From a virus: 28,452 nucleotides of DNA. The notes beneath the pieces were generated by a model. It saw only the letters and a list, made by a program, of their open reading frames with translations, was not told the DNA's origin and did no database searches. Location of the stretch: the IMG/VR virus record IMGVR_UViG_3300025151_000214, positions 1 through 28,452 of that record, one strand, 5' to 3'. Position numbers and translations under genes: made by a program. Below, one piece after another: positions 3,694 to 26,940 of the stretch (positions are counted from its first letter, which is position 1; the number at the start of each line of letters is the position of its first letter).

Positions 3694-4581
3694 TTATTTC
3701 TTCTTCTTTTTCATCTCAGCTTGGCGCTTCTTAGAACGCTCACGCATTGCCCGCAGTTCATCTACGCGCTGACGTGACACTGACTTACCAGTCTTAGCTA
3801 CAGAGTAAGCACGGCCCCTCTTGACAGGACCAACACCGCTCACACCACTACCCTTTTTAACTTTAGGAGTAGATTTAGGTTGAGCTTTAGGAGTAACGTT
3901 CTGACGCTTTGCTGGTTTCCTGTCATTAGGTGATCCCCTGCCAGTACCTTCTTGGGGCGGGATGTTAGACATGCCACGCTTAGCAGGCTTGGCAGGCTTT
4001 GCATAGCTTGTGGGACGACCACGGCGGTTACGGCTAGTTACCTCACGCTGGGGCTTGGCAGCAGGTTTGGGTTTACGCTTAACGGCAGCTCGGCTACCGC
4101 CTTGACCACCTTTAGTACCTGAACCTTGAGTCGTTCCTTTTCTAGCAAGTTTGGCAAGACCTTCGCCTCTACGCAGGCTATCTACCAAATCTTTAGCGGT
4201 AGCAATGCCACTAATAGCGAGGCCAGCTGCACCAGCTCCTTTAATACCTTTTGCAAGTTTAGATGCAGTGCGGATTGAAGGGTTAAACCGAGGCGGTTTA
4301 CCAATACCAGGAGGTCCACTCCTAGGAGTACCTTGAGTGCCGTACTTATTCACGCCTCCACGGCGTCCAGTGTCGCCTCCCATAGCGCTGGGTGTACGGC
4401 GGCTAGGACCTTGTACAGGAGGTCTGGCTGGACCTTGAGCACCACGAGCTGGTCCAGTAGGATTAGTTTTGACGCTTTTAGCACGAGCTTTTGCAGCTCG
4501 TTGCTCGCGCAGCAAACGTTGTTGACGTTGCCGCATAGTTTCTTCAGGCTTTTTGCCTTTGACTTTTTTACGAGGGGCCAT
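3694..4581 (-). CDS. Very basic low-complexity protein with one apolar segment, 295 aa
   Basis: Rich in Lys, Arg, Pro, Gly and Thr, opening MAPRKKVKGKKPEETMRQRQ and ending in a Lys run (EMKKKKK). About residues 110-135 include the only apolar stretch (GIKGAGAAGLAISGIATAKD). No catalytic motif. It looks like an intrinsically disordered nucleic-acid-binding protein; an alternative is a structural or DNA-condensing protein. Similar MAPRK-KGKKPEETMRQRQ proteins occur in marine cyanophages by recollection. It directly precedes the large terminase leader, so a link to packaging is suggested but not shown. Confidence 0.75.
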   Translation of the reverse strand: MAPRKKVKGKKPEETMRQRQQRLLREQRAAKARAKSVKTNPTGPARGAQGPARPPVQGPSRRTPSAMGGDTGRRGGVNKYGTQGTPRSGPPGIGKPPRFNPSIRTASKLAKGIKGAGAAGLAISGIATAKDLVDSLRRGEGLAKLARKGTTQGSGTKGGQGGSRAAVKRKPKPAAKPQREVTSRNRRGRPTSYAKPAKPAKRGMSNIPPQEGTGRGSPNDRKPAKRQNVTPKAQPKSTPKVKKGSGVSGVGPVKRGRAYSVAKTGKSVSRQRVDELRAMRERSKKRQAEMKKKKK

Positions 4582-23834: not shown

Positions 23835-24929
23835 TCAGAATGCAGAACCAGCGGTGCTGGTAGCGTGCAGTTCGACACAAGCAGCAGGGTTCAGGTAGTC
23901 GGTACCCATGCTGAGGCGACCCAGGATCACGTCGCCCTGGTAGATCACGGACACGTCGCCAGAGGTGACCTGGACCTGGGGTCCAATGGTCTCAACGACA
24001 CCAGCGGCTTCACGTTGGAAGATAAGTCCGCAGGAGGTATCGAAGTCGGTAGCAGAACCGTAGGCGTTGTTTTCGCCAGTGGTGGTAGCTTCCACGTCAA
24101 CGCCCACGAAGGAGCCAGCGTTGTCGATGGTAGAGGCAGTACCATACTTGCCCAGGAACGGAAGGTTCATGGACTTGTAGATCTTGATGCCAGCAATCGA
24201 CAGCACACCCTGACCGGACTGCAGAGCGGTACCCTGCTCGTCACGGTTGATCAGAGCGTTGCTCTGCACGTTTTCCACGAGCGAGTAGAATTGGCGTGGG
24301 GACAGAACAGCCACACGACCTTCCTGAGACACACCCTTCTCATCCAGGACAGCAGCAGCTTCAAAGAAGGCTGCCACGATCTTGGTGGAGTCGAGAGCGT
24401 CAGCAGTGGTGCCAGTACCAGAGCCAATCTGGATCTGGGTACCACCGGGCTCAACCTTACCGGATGCAGAGATGGGGTGAGCAGCACGTGCACCGCGTGC
24501 AATAGCACGGAAGATGCGACGGTCATAGTGCTCAGCCAGAGCATAGCCGATCTTCTTGGAGATCTCGCCACGCAGCTCGTAGTGAGCCAGGGTCTCATCG
24601 AGATCATACACGAAAGCGGAGCTGACCAGCAGGTCATCGACCACGATGGTCTTCTCTGCCACCGGGGGATCACCAGATCCCAGGATCGGAGTACCAGGCG
24701 TATGGAAACCAGCGTCCATGCGTCCAGTGTAGATGAACTGAAGAGACTTACCGTTCTTCAGCGTGCGCTTCATGACGAGGTCACGAGCGATGGTGTTATG
24801 CTGGAAGCCCTTGAACATCTCACCAGAGAAGAGCTTCAGATAAAGTTCATACTTGTCACCAGAACCACCATAACCAGTACCAGTACTGAGATTAGAGCGG
24901 CCTAGCGCAGTTTGTGTTGCGTTAGCCAT
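23835..24929 (-). CDS. Major capsid protein (T7 gp10A-like)
   Basis: 364 residues, near the T7 gp10A length (345), with the family's overall pattern: N-terminal arm with YELYLKLFSGEMF (residues about 27-39), E-loop region with GRMDAGFHTPGTPILG, and the HK97-fold core with ALAEHYDRRIFRAIARGARAAH. It forms the icosahedral shell. It follows the scaffold and auxiliary cassette as in cyanopodoviruses and is followed at once by a strong intrinsic terminator, the T7 gene 10/T-phi arrangement. Codon choice is more GC-ended than in neighbours, as expected for the most expressed gene. No Shine-Dalgarno precedes the ATG; the leader has CTCCTT instead. No slippery frameshift product like gp10B is evident. 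Identity is very secure. Confidence 0.96.
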   Translation of the reverse strand: MANATQTALGRSNLSTGTGYGGSGDKYELYLKLFSGEMFKGFQHNTIARDLVMKRTLKNGKSLQFIYTGRMDAGFHTPGTPILGSGDPPVAEKTIVVDDLLVSSAFVYDLDETLAHYELRGEISKKIGYALAEHYDRRIFRAIARGARAAHPISASGKVEPGGTQIQIGSGTGTTADALDSTKIVAAFFEAAAVLDEKGVSQEGRVAVLSPRQFYSLVENVQSNALINRDEQGTALQSGQGVLSIAGIKIYKSMNLPFLGKYGTASTIDNAGSFVGVDVEATTTGENNAYGSATDFDTSCGLIFQREAAGVVETIGPQVQVTSGDVSVIYQGDVILGRLSMGTDYLNPAACVELHATSTAGSAF

Positions 24930-25012
24930 TTGTTTAAGGAGTTAGTAAATTGTAACAGACTCCGAACGTTCAGATTAAAAAAGTTTTGTGGTCTATCCCA
25001 CCGTCTAGACGG

Positions 25013-25025
25013 CTAAGGGTGTCCC
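25013..25025 (-). promoter_or_regulatory. Candidate phage RNA polymerase promoter upstream of capsid gene
   Basis: GGGACACCCTTAG on the minus strand, about 85 bases before the capsid ATG. Similar strings occur in three other intergenic gaps (3637-3648, 1830-1842, 935-947). From memory it also resembles the published Syn5 RNA polymerase promoter (ATTGGGCACCCGTAA) in its GGG-CACCC-TA core. A capsid gene flanked by a phage promoter and a terminator is the T7 arrangement. It is inference from pattern only. Confidence 0.4.
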
Positions 25026-25046
25026 TCGTAAGGGGCCAAAGCCAAT

Positions 25047-25085
25047 GACTGGGGGAGGAATCGAACCTCCCCTACACCGTCAGTC
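25047..25085 (-). ncRNA. tRNA acceptor/T-arm-like fold in the capsid gene leader
   Basis: On the minus strand GACTG, an 8-base insertion ACGGTGTA, then GGGGAGG, loop TTCGATT, CCTCCCC and CAGTC. The two stems stack to 12 bp, the length of a tRNA T arm plus acceptor; the loop is a canonical T loop, and the insertion sits on the 5' strand where the D and anticodon arms would be. There is no anticodon arm, the 3' end reads ATTGG rather than ACCA, and no T tract follows. It is not a working tRNA; it may be a tRNA remnant, tRNA mimic or RNA-processing or stability element. Confidence 0.5.
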
Positions 25086-25187
25086 GATCTCTTTATACAC
25101 TACACCACGGTAGCGAAGGGCATCAGTGTGATAACGCTGTGCGCGCTTCTTCTGTGATGCAAGGAAACGAATAAGATTGATGGACAT
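25080..25187 (-). CDS. Very small conserved-looking protein with YRGVVY motif, 35-39 aa
   Basis: Translation from ATG 25187 gives 35 residues starting MSINLIRFLASQKKRAQ and ending RYRGVVYKEID. The RYRGVVY motif resembles the LxYRGVxY signature of DUF4278-type cyanobacterial and cyanophage small proteins. An in-frame TTG at 25199 has a possible ribosome site (GTTAGG) six to eight bases upstream and would add four residues (MYEL). It lies alone between the psbA-downstream cluster and the capsid leader, and its stop overlaps the tRNA-like fold. Function unknown; a small protein call like this is moderately uncertain. Confidence 0.6.
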   Translation of the reverse strand: MSINLIRFLASQKKRAQRYHTDALRYRGVVYKEID

Positions 25188-25205
25188 GAGTTCGTACAAG
25201 ATAAA

Positions 25206-25229
25206 CCTAACCCCCGTTCCATGGTTAGG
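25206..25229 (-). other. Inverted repeat, 7-bp perfect stem
   Basis: CCTAACC and GGTTAGG flank a 10-base loop. No T tract follows on the minus strand, so it is not a standard terminator. A smaller TCCC/GGGA hairpin lies just upstream in transcription (about 25236-25249). The 3' arm carries AGG just ahead of a possible TTG start at 25199, so the stem could hide a ribosome site or protect a processed 3' end. Confidence 0.5.
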
Positions 25230-25267
25230 CAGCATGCGTCCCGAATGGGATGAACGTACGAATAGTG

Positions 25268-25628: not shown

Positions 25629-25861
25629 GAGCATTTCCACTTGCGTAATGCAAGAGCCTTCCTTGTAGGACGACCCTTGCTGTCTTTCATTGGTCCTTTG
25701 ACACCGCCCATGCGAGCACAAAAGGACCTCTTACGGCCTGCAGCCTTTTTAGTTTTAGGGTTAGGAGCTGGGGGTTTTAAGTTAGCACCCTCCTTCGCTT
25801 TGAAGTGTCTCCTGCCCGCAGCGGTCAAACCGCCAGAGGGACTTTTGTGTTCTTTACGCAT
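25625..25861 (-). CDS. Small basic conserved cyanophage protein (DUF6321-like), 78 aa
   Basis: Soluble, strongly basic protein with the pattern SPSGGLTAAGRRHF near residues 7-20, a Pro/Lys-rich middle, then GRKRSFCARMGG and the ending KALALRKWKCS. The Cys residues in CARM and WKC could bind metal, but two cysteines are few. I recall this layout as DUF6321, a family widespread in marine phages and of unknown function; that assignment is from memory. Start and stop are tied to neighbours: ATG overlaps the psbA stop and TGA overlaps the next ATG (ATGA), so it is translated from the psbA message. Confidence 0.8.
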   Translation of the reverse strand: MRKEHKSPSGGLTAAGRRHFKAKEGANLKPPAPNPKTKKAAGRKRSFCARMGGVKGPMKDSKGRPTRKALALRKWKCS

Positions 25862-26940
25862 CAGCCAATAGCAGGGGCATTGAGTGCGACAGGTGTGGTC
25901 TCAGCGGCTGCGAGATCCAAGGGGAAGTTGTGTGCGTTACGCTCATGCATAACTTCCATACCCAGACCAGCTCGGTTGAGAACGTCTGCCCAGGTGTTCA
26001 CCACATGACCTTGACTCTCAACAATGGATTGATTGAAGTTGAATCCGTTGAGGTTGAACGCCATGGTGGAGACGCCGAGGGCGGTAAACCAGATGCCCAC
26101 GACCGGCCATGCTGCAAGGAAGAAGTGCAGAGAGCGGCTGTTATTAAACGAAGCATACTGGAAAATCAAACGTCCGAAGTAACCGTGGGCAGCGACAATG
26201 TTATATGTCTCTTCTTCCTGCCCAAACTTGTATCCATAACTCTGCGAGACCTCTTCGGTAGTCTCCCTAATGAGGGACGACGTGACGAGAGATCCGTGCA
26301 TAGCTGAAAAAAGAGCACCACCAAATACCCCAGCAACACCAAGCATATGGAAAGGGTGCATAAGGATGTTGTGCTCCGCTTGGAAGACAAGCATGTAGTT
26401 GAAGGTACCTGAGATTCCGAGGGGCATTGCATCAGAGAAAGATCCTTGTCCGAAGGGGTAAACCAGGAACACGGCAGAGGCAGCTGCAACAGGTGCAGAG
26501 TATGCCACAAAGATCCAAGGACGCATACCTAGTCGATAGCTAAGTTCCCACTCTCGTCCCATGTAAGAATAGATACCAATGAGGAAGTGGAAAACGACAA
26601 GCTGGAATGGACCCCCATTGTAGAGCCATTCATCAAGTGTAGCAGCTTCCCAAATTGGGTAGAAGTGTAGTCCGATGGCATTGCTGCTCGGAACGACGGC
26701 TCCCGATACGATGTTGTTTCCATAGAGGAGGGAGCCTGCAACGGGTTCACGGATTCCATCAATGTCAACAGGCGGAGCGCCAATGAAGGCGATAATAAAA
26801 CAGGTTGTGGCTGCCAGTAAGGTAGGAATCATCAGGATACCAAACCAGCCTACGTATAGACGATTGTTTGTAGAGGTTACCCAGGAACAGAACTGCTCCC
26901 AGTTACTCGTCTGACCTCGCAGTGAAGTAATCGCTGTCAT
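25861..26940 (-). CDS. psbA: Photosystem II reaction centre protein D1
   Basis: D1 core subunit of photosystem II, binding P680, pheophytin, QB and the Mn4CaO5 cluster in the thylakoid membrane. The gene is uninterrupted: 359 residues, five hydrophobic segments, no intron. All key residues are at canonical positions: E130, Tyr161 (TyrZ), D170, E189, H190, H198, H215, S264, H272, H332, E333, H337, D342 and A344, with a C-terminal extension after A344 for CtpA processing. E130 is the form associated with high-light D1. The start lies inside the upstream HNH gene and has no Shine-Dalgarno; the TGA overlaps the next ATG (TGATG). By family knowledge, phage D1 replaces photodamaged host D1 and keeps energy flowing during infection. 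Identification is certain. Confidence 0.99.

Follow-up and report, generated by a model that had tools for sequence, protein, structure and literature searches.

Transfer RNAs can punctuate transcripts, as in animal mitochondria and bacterial tRNA-mRNA operons, where polycistronic transcripts are split at them. In MALAT1/mascRNA and in the immunity RNAs of P4 and P1, a tRNA-like structure lies in a long RNA whose end is set by RNase P/Z. The late mRNAs of T7 are processed by RNase III, with a leader structure at the processed 5′ end before gene 10. In the t-elements of plant mitochondria, a tRNA or tRNA-like structure lies beside a protein gene, and cleavage by RNase Z produces the 5′ end of the mRNA; from species to species a whole tRNA or a degenerate form of one takes this place, and in potato mitochondria a tRNA overlaps the C-terminus of the ccmC ORF (PMC6801519). 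Bacterial RNase P (RNA) cuts hairpins made only of the acceptor stem and T-arm at the canonical site, and is thought to gauge 12 bp from the T-loop (PMC11143913). Both RNase P and RNase Z are present in cyanobacteria, RNase Z universally so (PMC10989914), and cyanobacterial RNase P favours precursors without CCA (PMC4264200).

No description of a tRNA-like mRNA element in cyanophages or other phages was found in the open-access literature, a body of work that leaves most subscription journals outside. The locus considered here lies in the 28-kb window (the whole stretch of 28,452 nucleotides that was analysed) of a T7-like cyanophage, in which the psbA, capsid and tail-tube genes that were checked are all on the minus strand. 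The features of the locus are as follows.

25861 to 26940, minus strand: psbA (photosystem II D1), upstream in the same late block (Pfam PF00124, 1.3e-87)
25205 to 25259, minus strand: glutamine-II riboswitch, 5′ of the peptide ORF (Rfam RF01704, 56.1 bits)
25080 to 25187, minus strand: downstream-peptide ORF MSINLIRFLASQKKRAQRYHTDALRYRGVVYKEID, 35 codons, with its stop inside the tRNA-like element
25047 to 25085, minus strand: tRNA-like element in the leader of the capsid gene (sequence, RNAfold, architecture scan, homologous elements)
25073 to 25080, minus strand: insert ACGGTGTA, 8 nt on the 5′ strand, a GG-bearing putative D-loop mimic that covaries with T-loop base 55 in relatives
25046, minus strand: discriminator-like A; RNase Z is predicted to cut between it and TTGGC
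24988 to 25045, minus strand: structured leader module TTGGC...CCAC (alignment, covariation)
25001 to 25012, minus strand: palindrome CCGTCTAGACGG, whose centre varies in relatives and is usually still palindromic
24962 to 24973, minus strand: near-palindrome CTGAACGTTCGG, the second in the leader, 5′ of the capsid start (sequence)
23835 to 24929, minus strand: major capsid protein gene, T7 gp10A-like, start at 24929 (Pfam PF21703, 1.2e-69)

The order along the minus strand is psbA, glutamine-II riboswitch, peptide ORF, tRNA-like element, structured block, near-palindrome and capsid gene. The order of the genes is the same in the reference cyanophages S-SBP1, S-TIP37, P-SSP7, S-RIP1, S-RIP2, S-CBP1 and others. 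Many T7-like cyanophages have a glutamine-II riboswitch in the interval from psbA to the capsid gene (matched in 12 of 18 loci sampled), and in relatives it often lies 5′ of a short peptide ORF with a YRG motif. The peptide ORF of the window (25080 to 25187) gave no match in Pfam, and no sigma-70 promoter that could be the source of a transcription start site was found at the element.

All the parts named in the original prediction were found, on the minus strand: stems of 5 and 7 bp totalling 12 bp, the T-loop TTCGATT, an 8-base insertion on the 5′ side and a position in the capsid leader. Read from 25085 to 25047, the element is GACTG-ACGGTGTA-GGGGAGG-TTCGATT-CCTCCCC-CAGTC, followed by A, with an outer acceptor-like stem of 5 bp (GACTG/CAGTC, 25085-25081 with 25051-25047), a T-stem of 7 bp (GGGGAGG/CCTCCCC, 25072-25066 with 25058-25052) and the T-loop at 25065-25059. 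This two-stem structure was both the MFE and the centroid structure in RNAfold. The fold energy of the region was unremarkable (z −0.85), so that energy alone is no proof, and it was discarded as evidence. At the same time, a scan for a T-loop hairpin with an outer stem stacking to 12 bp detected this single element in the window, against a chance expectation of 0.03 per Markov shuffle of the window. The element has the features of a tRNA elbow, namely U54, C56, R57 and A58 in the T-loop and a D-loop-like GG that would contact U55/C56, and its coaxial stack of 12 bp falls within the range of about 10–13 bp seen among relatives. It is not a functional tRNA gene: neither ARAGORN nor Rfam (RF00005) called a tRNA in the window, and the glutamine-II riboswitch was the sole match to Rfam families in the window and the related leaders.

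The module that follows the element consists of a GGCT/AGCC helix with a nested UACG hairpin, the palindrome CCGTCTAGACGG and a GTGG-GATAGA-CCAC hairpin. In an alignment of 42 modules (A1), 98% of the cells of the GGC(U)/(A)GCC helix and its nested UACG-type hairpin were paired, and the covariation score of these helices was 0.547, versus 0.145 for shuffled alignments and at most 0.093 when the helices were slid. In the third hairpin, the loop GAURGA is kept while the stem changes between GTGG/CCAC, GTAGG/CCTAC, GTGTG/CACAC and GACTG/CAGTC. The module matched no Rfam family, and this three-helix leader 5′ of the capsid genes of T7-like cyanophages is a candidate new RNA family. A self-cleaving ribozyme was considered for it and rejected, as no known core was matched by eye and there was no match in Rfam. 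The palindrome centres differ among phages (CTAG, CATG, ATAT, TCGA, AGCT, ACGT and CCGG, as well as AACGTT, GGATCC, GATC and TACGTA); their being mostly kept as palindromes despite sequence change suggests a dimeric DNA or RNA contact and not a simple hairpin.

Related loci were gathered by capsid protein, downstream block, class B loop and T-arm patterns; a broad scan with the T-loop pattern was set aside because its matches were mostly ordinary viral tRNAs. Wherever the gene was on the contig, in 113 loci, the downstream block preceded a capsid homologue. Distances of 290–305 nt to the capsid gene at three loci proved to be tblastn artefacts, and the true starts lie at the usual distance. 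In all 110 loci with enough sequence, the slot directly before the block was filled by one of two types of structure: a T-loop hairpin or tRNA in 47 (and, with one stem mismatch, in L150), and an unrelated hairpin, here called class B, with the loop CACCTCARNGTCGGA or one-base variants, in 52 plus 10. Mini-elements occur in P-SSP7, S-TIP37, S-RIP1 and S-SBP1, among others. The content of the slot switched at least 28 times on a capsid tree of 204 rows, by which measure the element is exchanged as a module.

The class B hairpin has a stem of about 9–10 bp, and its 15-nt loop, CACCTCARWGTCGGA or the variant GTAGGA, is strongly conserved. It stands directly before TTGGC in L005, L006, L008, L009, L021-L024 and many others. 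Over half of the retrieved relatives have it in place of the tRNA-like element, and it reaches capsid genes that are only about 45% identical. It had no match in Rfam. Its reading as a second T-loop was rejected, as the loop UCARWGU(C/A) violates the T-loop rule at the fifth base. Since this hairpin without a T-loop occupies the slot in more than half of the relatives, a second structure must meet the function there.

The slot can also hold whole tRNAs. In L098, L140 and L348 it is an intact tRNA-Gly(UCC), scored at 68–70 bits by Rfam, the discriminator of which is directly followed by TTGGC; in L092 and L096 it holds a tRNA called as Leu. In a pattern scan, a 3′ half of tRNA-Gly type stood immediately ahead of TTTGGC in 81 contigs; the capsid gene follows in 77 of them, and ARAGORN called 36. 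The Rfam tRNA scores form a graded series from 70 down to 25 bits, with forms having a weak D-arm at 25–34 bits, and in L323 the acceptor stem, a GG-bearing insert and the T-arm are kept, the anticodon arm alone being missing. Along the series, identity elements are lost while the acceptor/T-arm stack is kept. The distance from the T-loop to TTGG, part of the TTGGC that does not vary in the downstream leader, is 13 nt in all 31 tRNA types and in the window element; among 69 mini-elements it is 13 nt in 41, 14 nt in 24 and 15 nt in 4. Replacement by genuine tRNAs at the corresponding place in the mRNA, which is one of the criteria for a t-element, was found in the relatives, and the graded series makes an origin of the mini-element from a tRNA likely.

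Several side observations concern these tRNAs. An upstream ORF extends across the tRNA-Gly 5′ half and stops at the anticodon stem in L155, L280, L284, L297, L302, L311, L317, L331 and others, with C-termini such as ...RVPMEESRFPT, and this overlap of coding sequence and tRNA may explain the degraded D-arm. In L348 (4416-4576), tandem tRNAs, one of 87 nt and then the tRNA-Gly, precede the capsid leader module. Additionally, L092 carries at 3901-3937, on the minus strand and near the tRNA in the capsid leader, a match to the Rfam abiF RNA (47.8 bits); abiF RNAs are associated with phage defence.

The original prediction had proposed that paired changes in both stems with a fixed T-loop in relatives would support selection, and compensatory changes alongside the kept T-loop were observed. 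The outer stem varies by lineage and still pairs (GACTG/CAGTC, GAGTA/TACTC, AACTGA/TCAGTT, AAGTAA/TTACTT, AAGTGA/TCACTT, AGTGA/TCACT and others), with at least 15 different strand sequences among relatives. Of 68 unique elements, 44 had a perfect 5-bp partner of the 3′ strand at 4–20 nt upstream, versus 3.2 expected when the upstream sequence was shuffled.

In the tRNA elbow, G18 contacts base 55 and G19 pairs with C56. The T-loops of the module-linked elements follow T[T/G]C[A/G]ANN, the second base being only T or G in a search that allowed any base; G is at position 55 in about half of the mini-elements, and real tRNAs are without G55. The canonical T-loop that had been predicted is present in the window; in relatives, G is tolerated as its second base provided that the insert is altered too. 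The insert, usually a small hairpin or a short strand, carries a loop with unpaired GG (GUUAGG, UUAAGG, AAAUAGG, UGGUGA, CGGUGUA) where the T-loop begins with TTC, and AG, rarely UG (GUUAAG, UUAAAG, UAAG, UAGA, CUGU), where it begins with TGC. The closest pair, with nearly identical leaders, is L041, with ATCG-GTTAGG-CGAT and TTCAAGT, versus L080, with ATCG-GTTAAG-CGAT and TGCAAGT. In a first automatic test of the elbow, unrelated viral tRNAs and closing G-U pairs were counted as well, and the test was redone with module-linked elements only. Base 55 and the insert motif agree in 64 of 68 rows of the capsid tree; the four departures, explained by hand, stem from the automatic rule, as in two TGGTGA was clipped by the length limit and in two an AGG outside the loop was counted. 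Among independent pairs on supported branches, 13 agree, none disagrees and 2 are undecided (p = 0.00024), for a rule that was framed after the data had been viewed and for pairs whose independence is only approximate because leader modules recombine. We infer that this covariation is an exchange of G18-U55 for A18-G55 with G19-C56 kept, with the base-level geometry so presumed. By this covariation the insert is a D-loop substitute and not filler: the 8-base insertion does lie where it had been placed, at the missing D and anticodon arms, and it carries the GG of a D-loop. Judging from the sequences compared, it is very likely that the element has the described structure and is under selection as a tRNA mimic.

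As to function, a processing site for the capsid mRNA cut by RNase Z/P is the probable role. In the proposed mechanism, the acceptor/T-arm stack would fold in the late transcript (psbA, glutamine-II riboswitch, peptide ORF and capsid) and the D-loop-like insert would dock on the T-loop; host RNase Z, possibly together with RNase P, would then cut at the mimic, and a cut by RNase Z after the discriminator would give a capsid mRNA starting with UUGGC, just 5′ of the structured block. From the intact tRNA to the mini-element, the acceptor/T-arm stack is constant, as are the elbow and the precise 3′ junction, and the anticodon arm is lost; the features kept are those recognised by RNase P and RNase Z and not those needed in translation, which argues for the RNase Z cut. 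The whole tRNAs that occupy the slot in relatives speak strongly for the cleavage option of the original prediction, the cutting itself being presumed. CCA is not encoded at the window element. Weighing against a processing role are the class B hairpins, the G55 of about half of the mini-elements and a total helix length that ranges from about 10 to 13 bp. The participation of RNase P is doubtful: the upstream ORF terminates within most mini-elements and within the tRNA types as well, in the window with TGA at 25082-25080, and a 5′ cut by RNase P would take away its stop codon. This overlap raises the hypothesis that terminating ribosomes may delay folding and cutting. A more speculative extension, to which we give a rather low probability, is that the glutamine-II riboswitch controls translation of the peptide, that terminating ribosomes keep the mimic unfolded, and that a fall in translation permits folding, cutting and release of the capsid mRNA. 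If such a translation-gated switch is real, the nitrogen state of the host would set capsid output through tRNA-processing enzymes, and the mimic would be a new minimal form of tRNA, with A18-G55 substituted for G18-U55 in the elbow.

Other readings of the element have to be weighed against processing. The stems are G+C-rich, and class B hairpins without a T-loop occupy the same slot, both of which would suit a stable hairpin that is not cleaved but blocks exonucleases or aids folding of the module. Such a stability or insulation stem, also among the options of the original prediction, is unlikely, as it leaves unexplained the fixed T-loop, its covariation with the D-loop-like insert and the whole tRNAs in the slot; moreover, a tetraloop hairpin would suffice for this purpose, and none was seen in loci with enough upstream sequence. 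The element might instead stay uncut and bind EF-Tu, the CCA-adding enzyme, a synthetase or a phage protein, for instance to regulate how the capsid is translated or to label the psbA mRNA at its 3′ end. These proteins also see the elbow and the acceptor stack, which is retained while identity elements are lost, but the mini-elements are internal to the transcript and have no free 3′ end without a cut, and whole tRNAs in the slot would be processed anyway; this possibility is somewhat less probable still.

The 36 intact tRNA-Gly genes and the degraded forms at the same place could also mean that the slot is mainly a tRNA gene site, with a useful tRNA-Gly(UCC) retained in part of the phages and functionless, decaying remnants of it as the mini-elements. 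However, mini-elements keep compensated stems (15 versions) and a compensated tertiary contact, and the neutral-remnant reading is contradicted by these stems, the elbow and the constant position; it is given very little credence. The other relic once proposed, an attachment site derived from a decayed host tRNA, fared well only as regards tRNA ancestry, which the graded series makes likely. T-arms are common parts of attachment sites, and a marine Prochlorococcus podovirus reportedly carries a tRNA-derived sequence adjoining its integrase, which counts for a phage copy of the 3′ end of a host tRNA. Against this, the capsid gene follows in every locus checked, and the sequence differs per lineage, with compensation; because of the compensated stem variation, the compensated elbow and the modular exchange, an attachment site is not supported, and its probability is close to nil.

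If the processing reading is right, some of the most abundant viruses of the ocean use the tRNA-maturation enzymes of their hosts for the mRNA of their coat protein. The relatives form a natural series from an intact tRNA to the smallest structure that evolution treats as tRNA-like, which bears on the minimal needs of RNase P and RNase Z, and the predicted replacement of G18-U55 by A18-G55 is a directly testable structural prediction. Moreover, a structured leader 5′ of the capsid genes of T7-like cyanophages that is absent from Rfam is now described.

Taken against the known systems, the element is probably, on this sequence-based comparison, a minimal tRNA mimic that marks an mRNA processing site and works like a t-element. 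Like the plant t-elements, it interchanges whole and degenerate tRNAs beside a protein gene and overlaps the end of an ORF, as in potato ccmC; unlike them, it resides in a bacterial virus, always at the same gene, its cleavage is a presumed one, its elbow contact is compensated, and the putative cut is followed by a structured leader dedicated to it. As in tRNA punctuation, the intact tRNA-Gly of some relatives lies between ORFs, and its excision would free an mRNA, whereas most relatives are without a usable tRNA and keep just the parts seen by the processing enzymes. The minimal model substrates of RNase P share the acceptor stem, T-stem and T-loop (PMC11143913), but the cyanophage element is natural and has an insert that mimics the D-loop. 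MALAT1/mascRNA and the P4/P1 RNAs likewise hold a tRNA-like structure within a long RNA, in other hosts and other gene contexts. With the RNase III processing of T7, the locus has in common a T7-like phage, late genes and a leader structure before the capsid gene; the cyanophage element differs from the T7 hairpin in being tRNA-like, and the class B hairpin might be closer to the RNase III hairpin of T7 than the tRNA-like element is.
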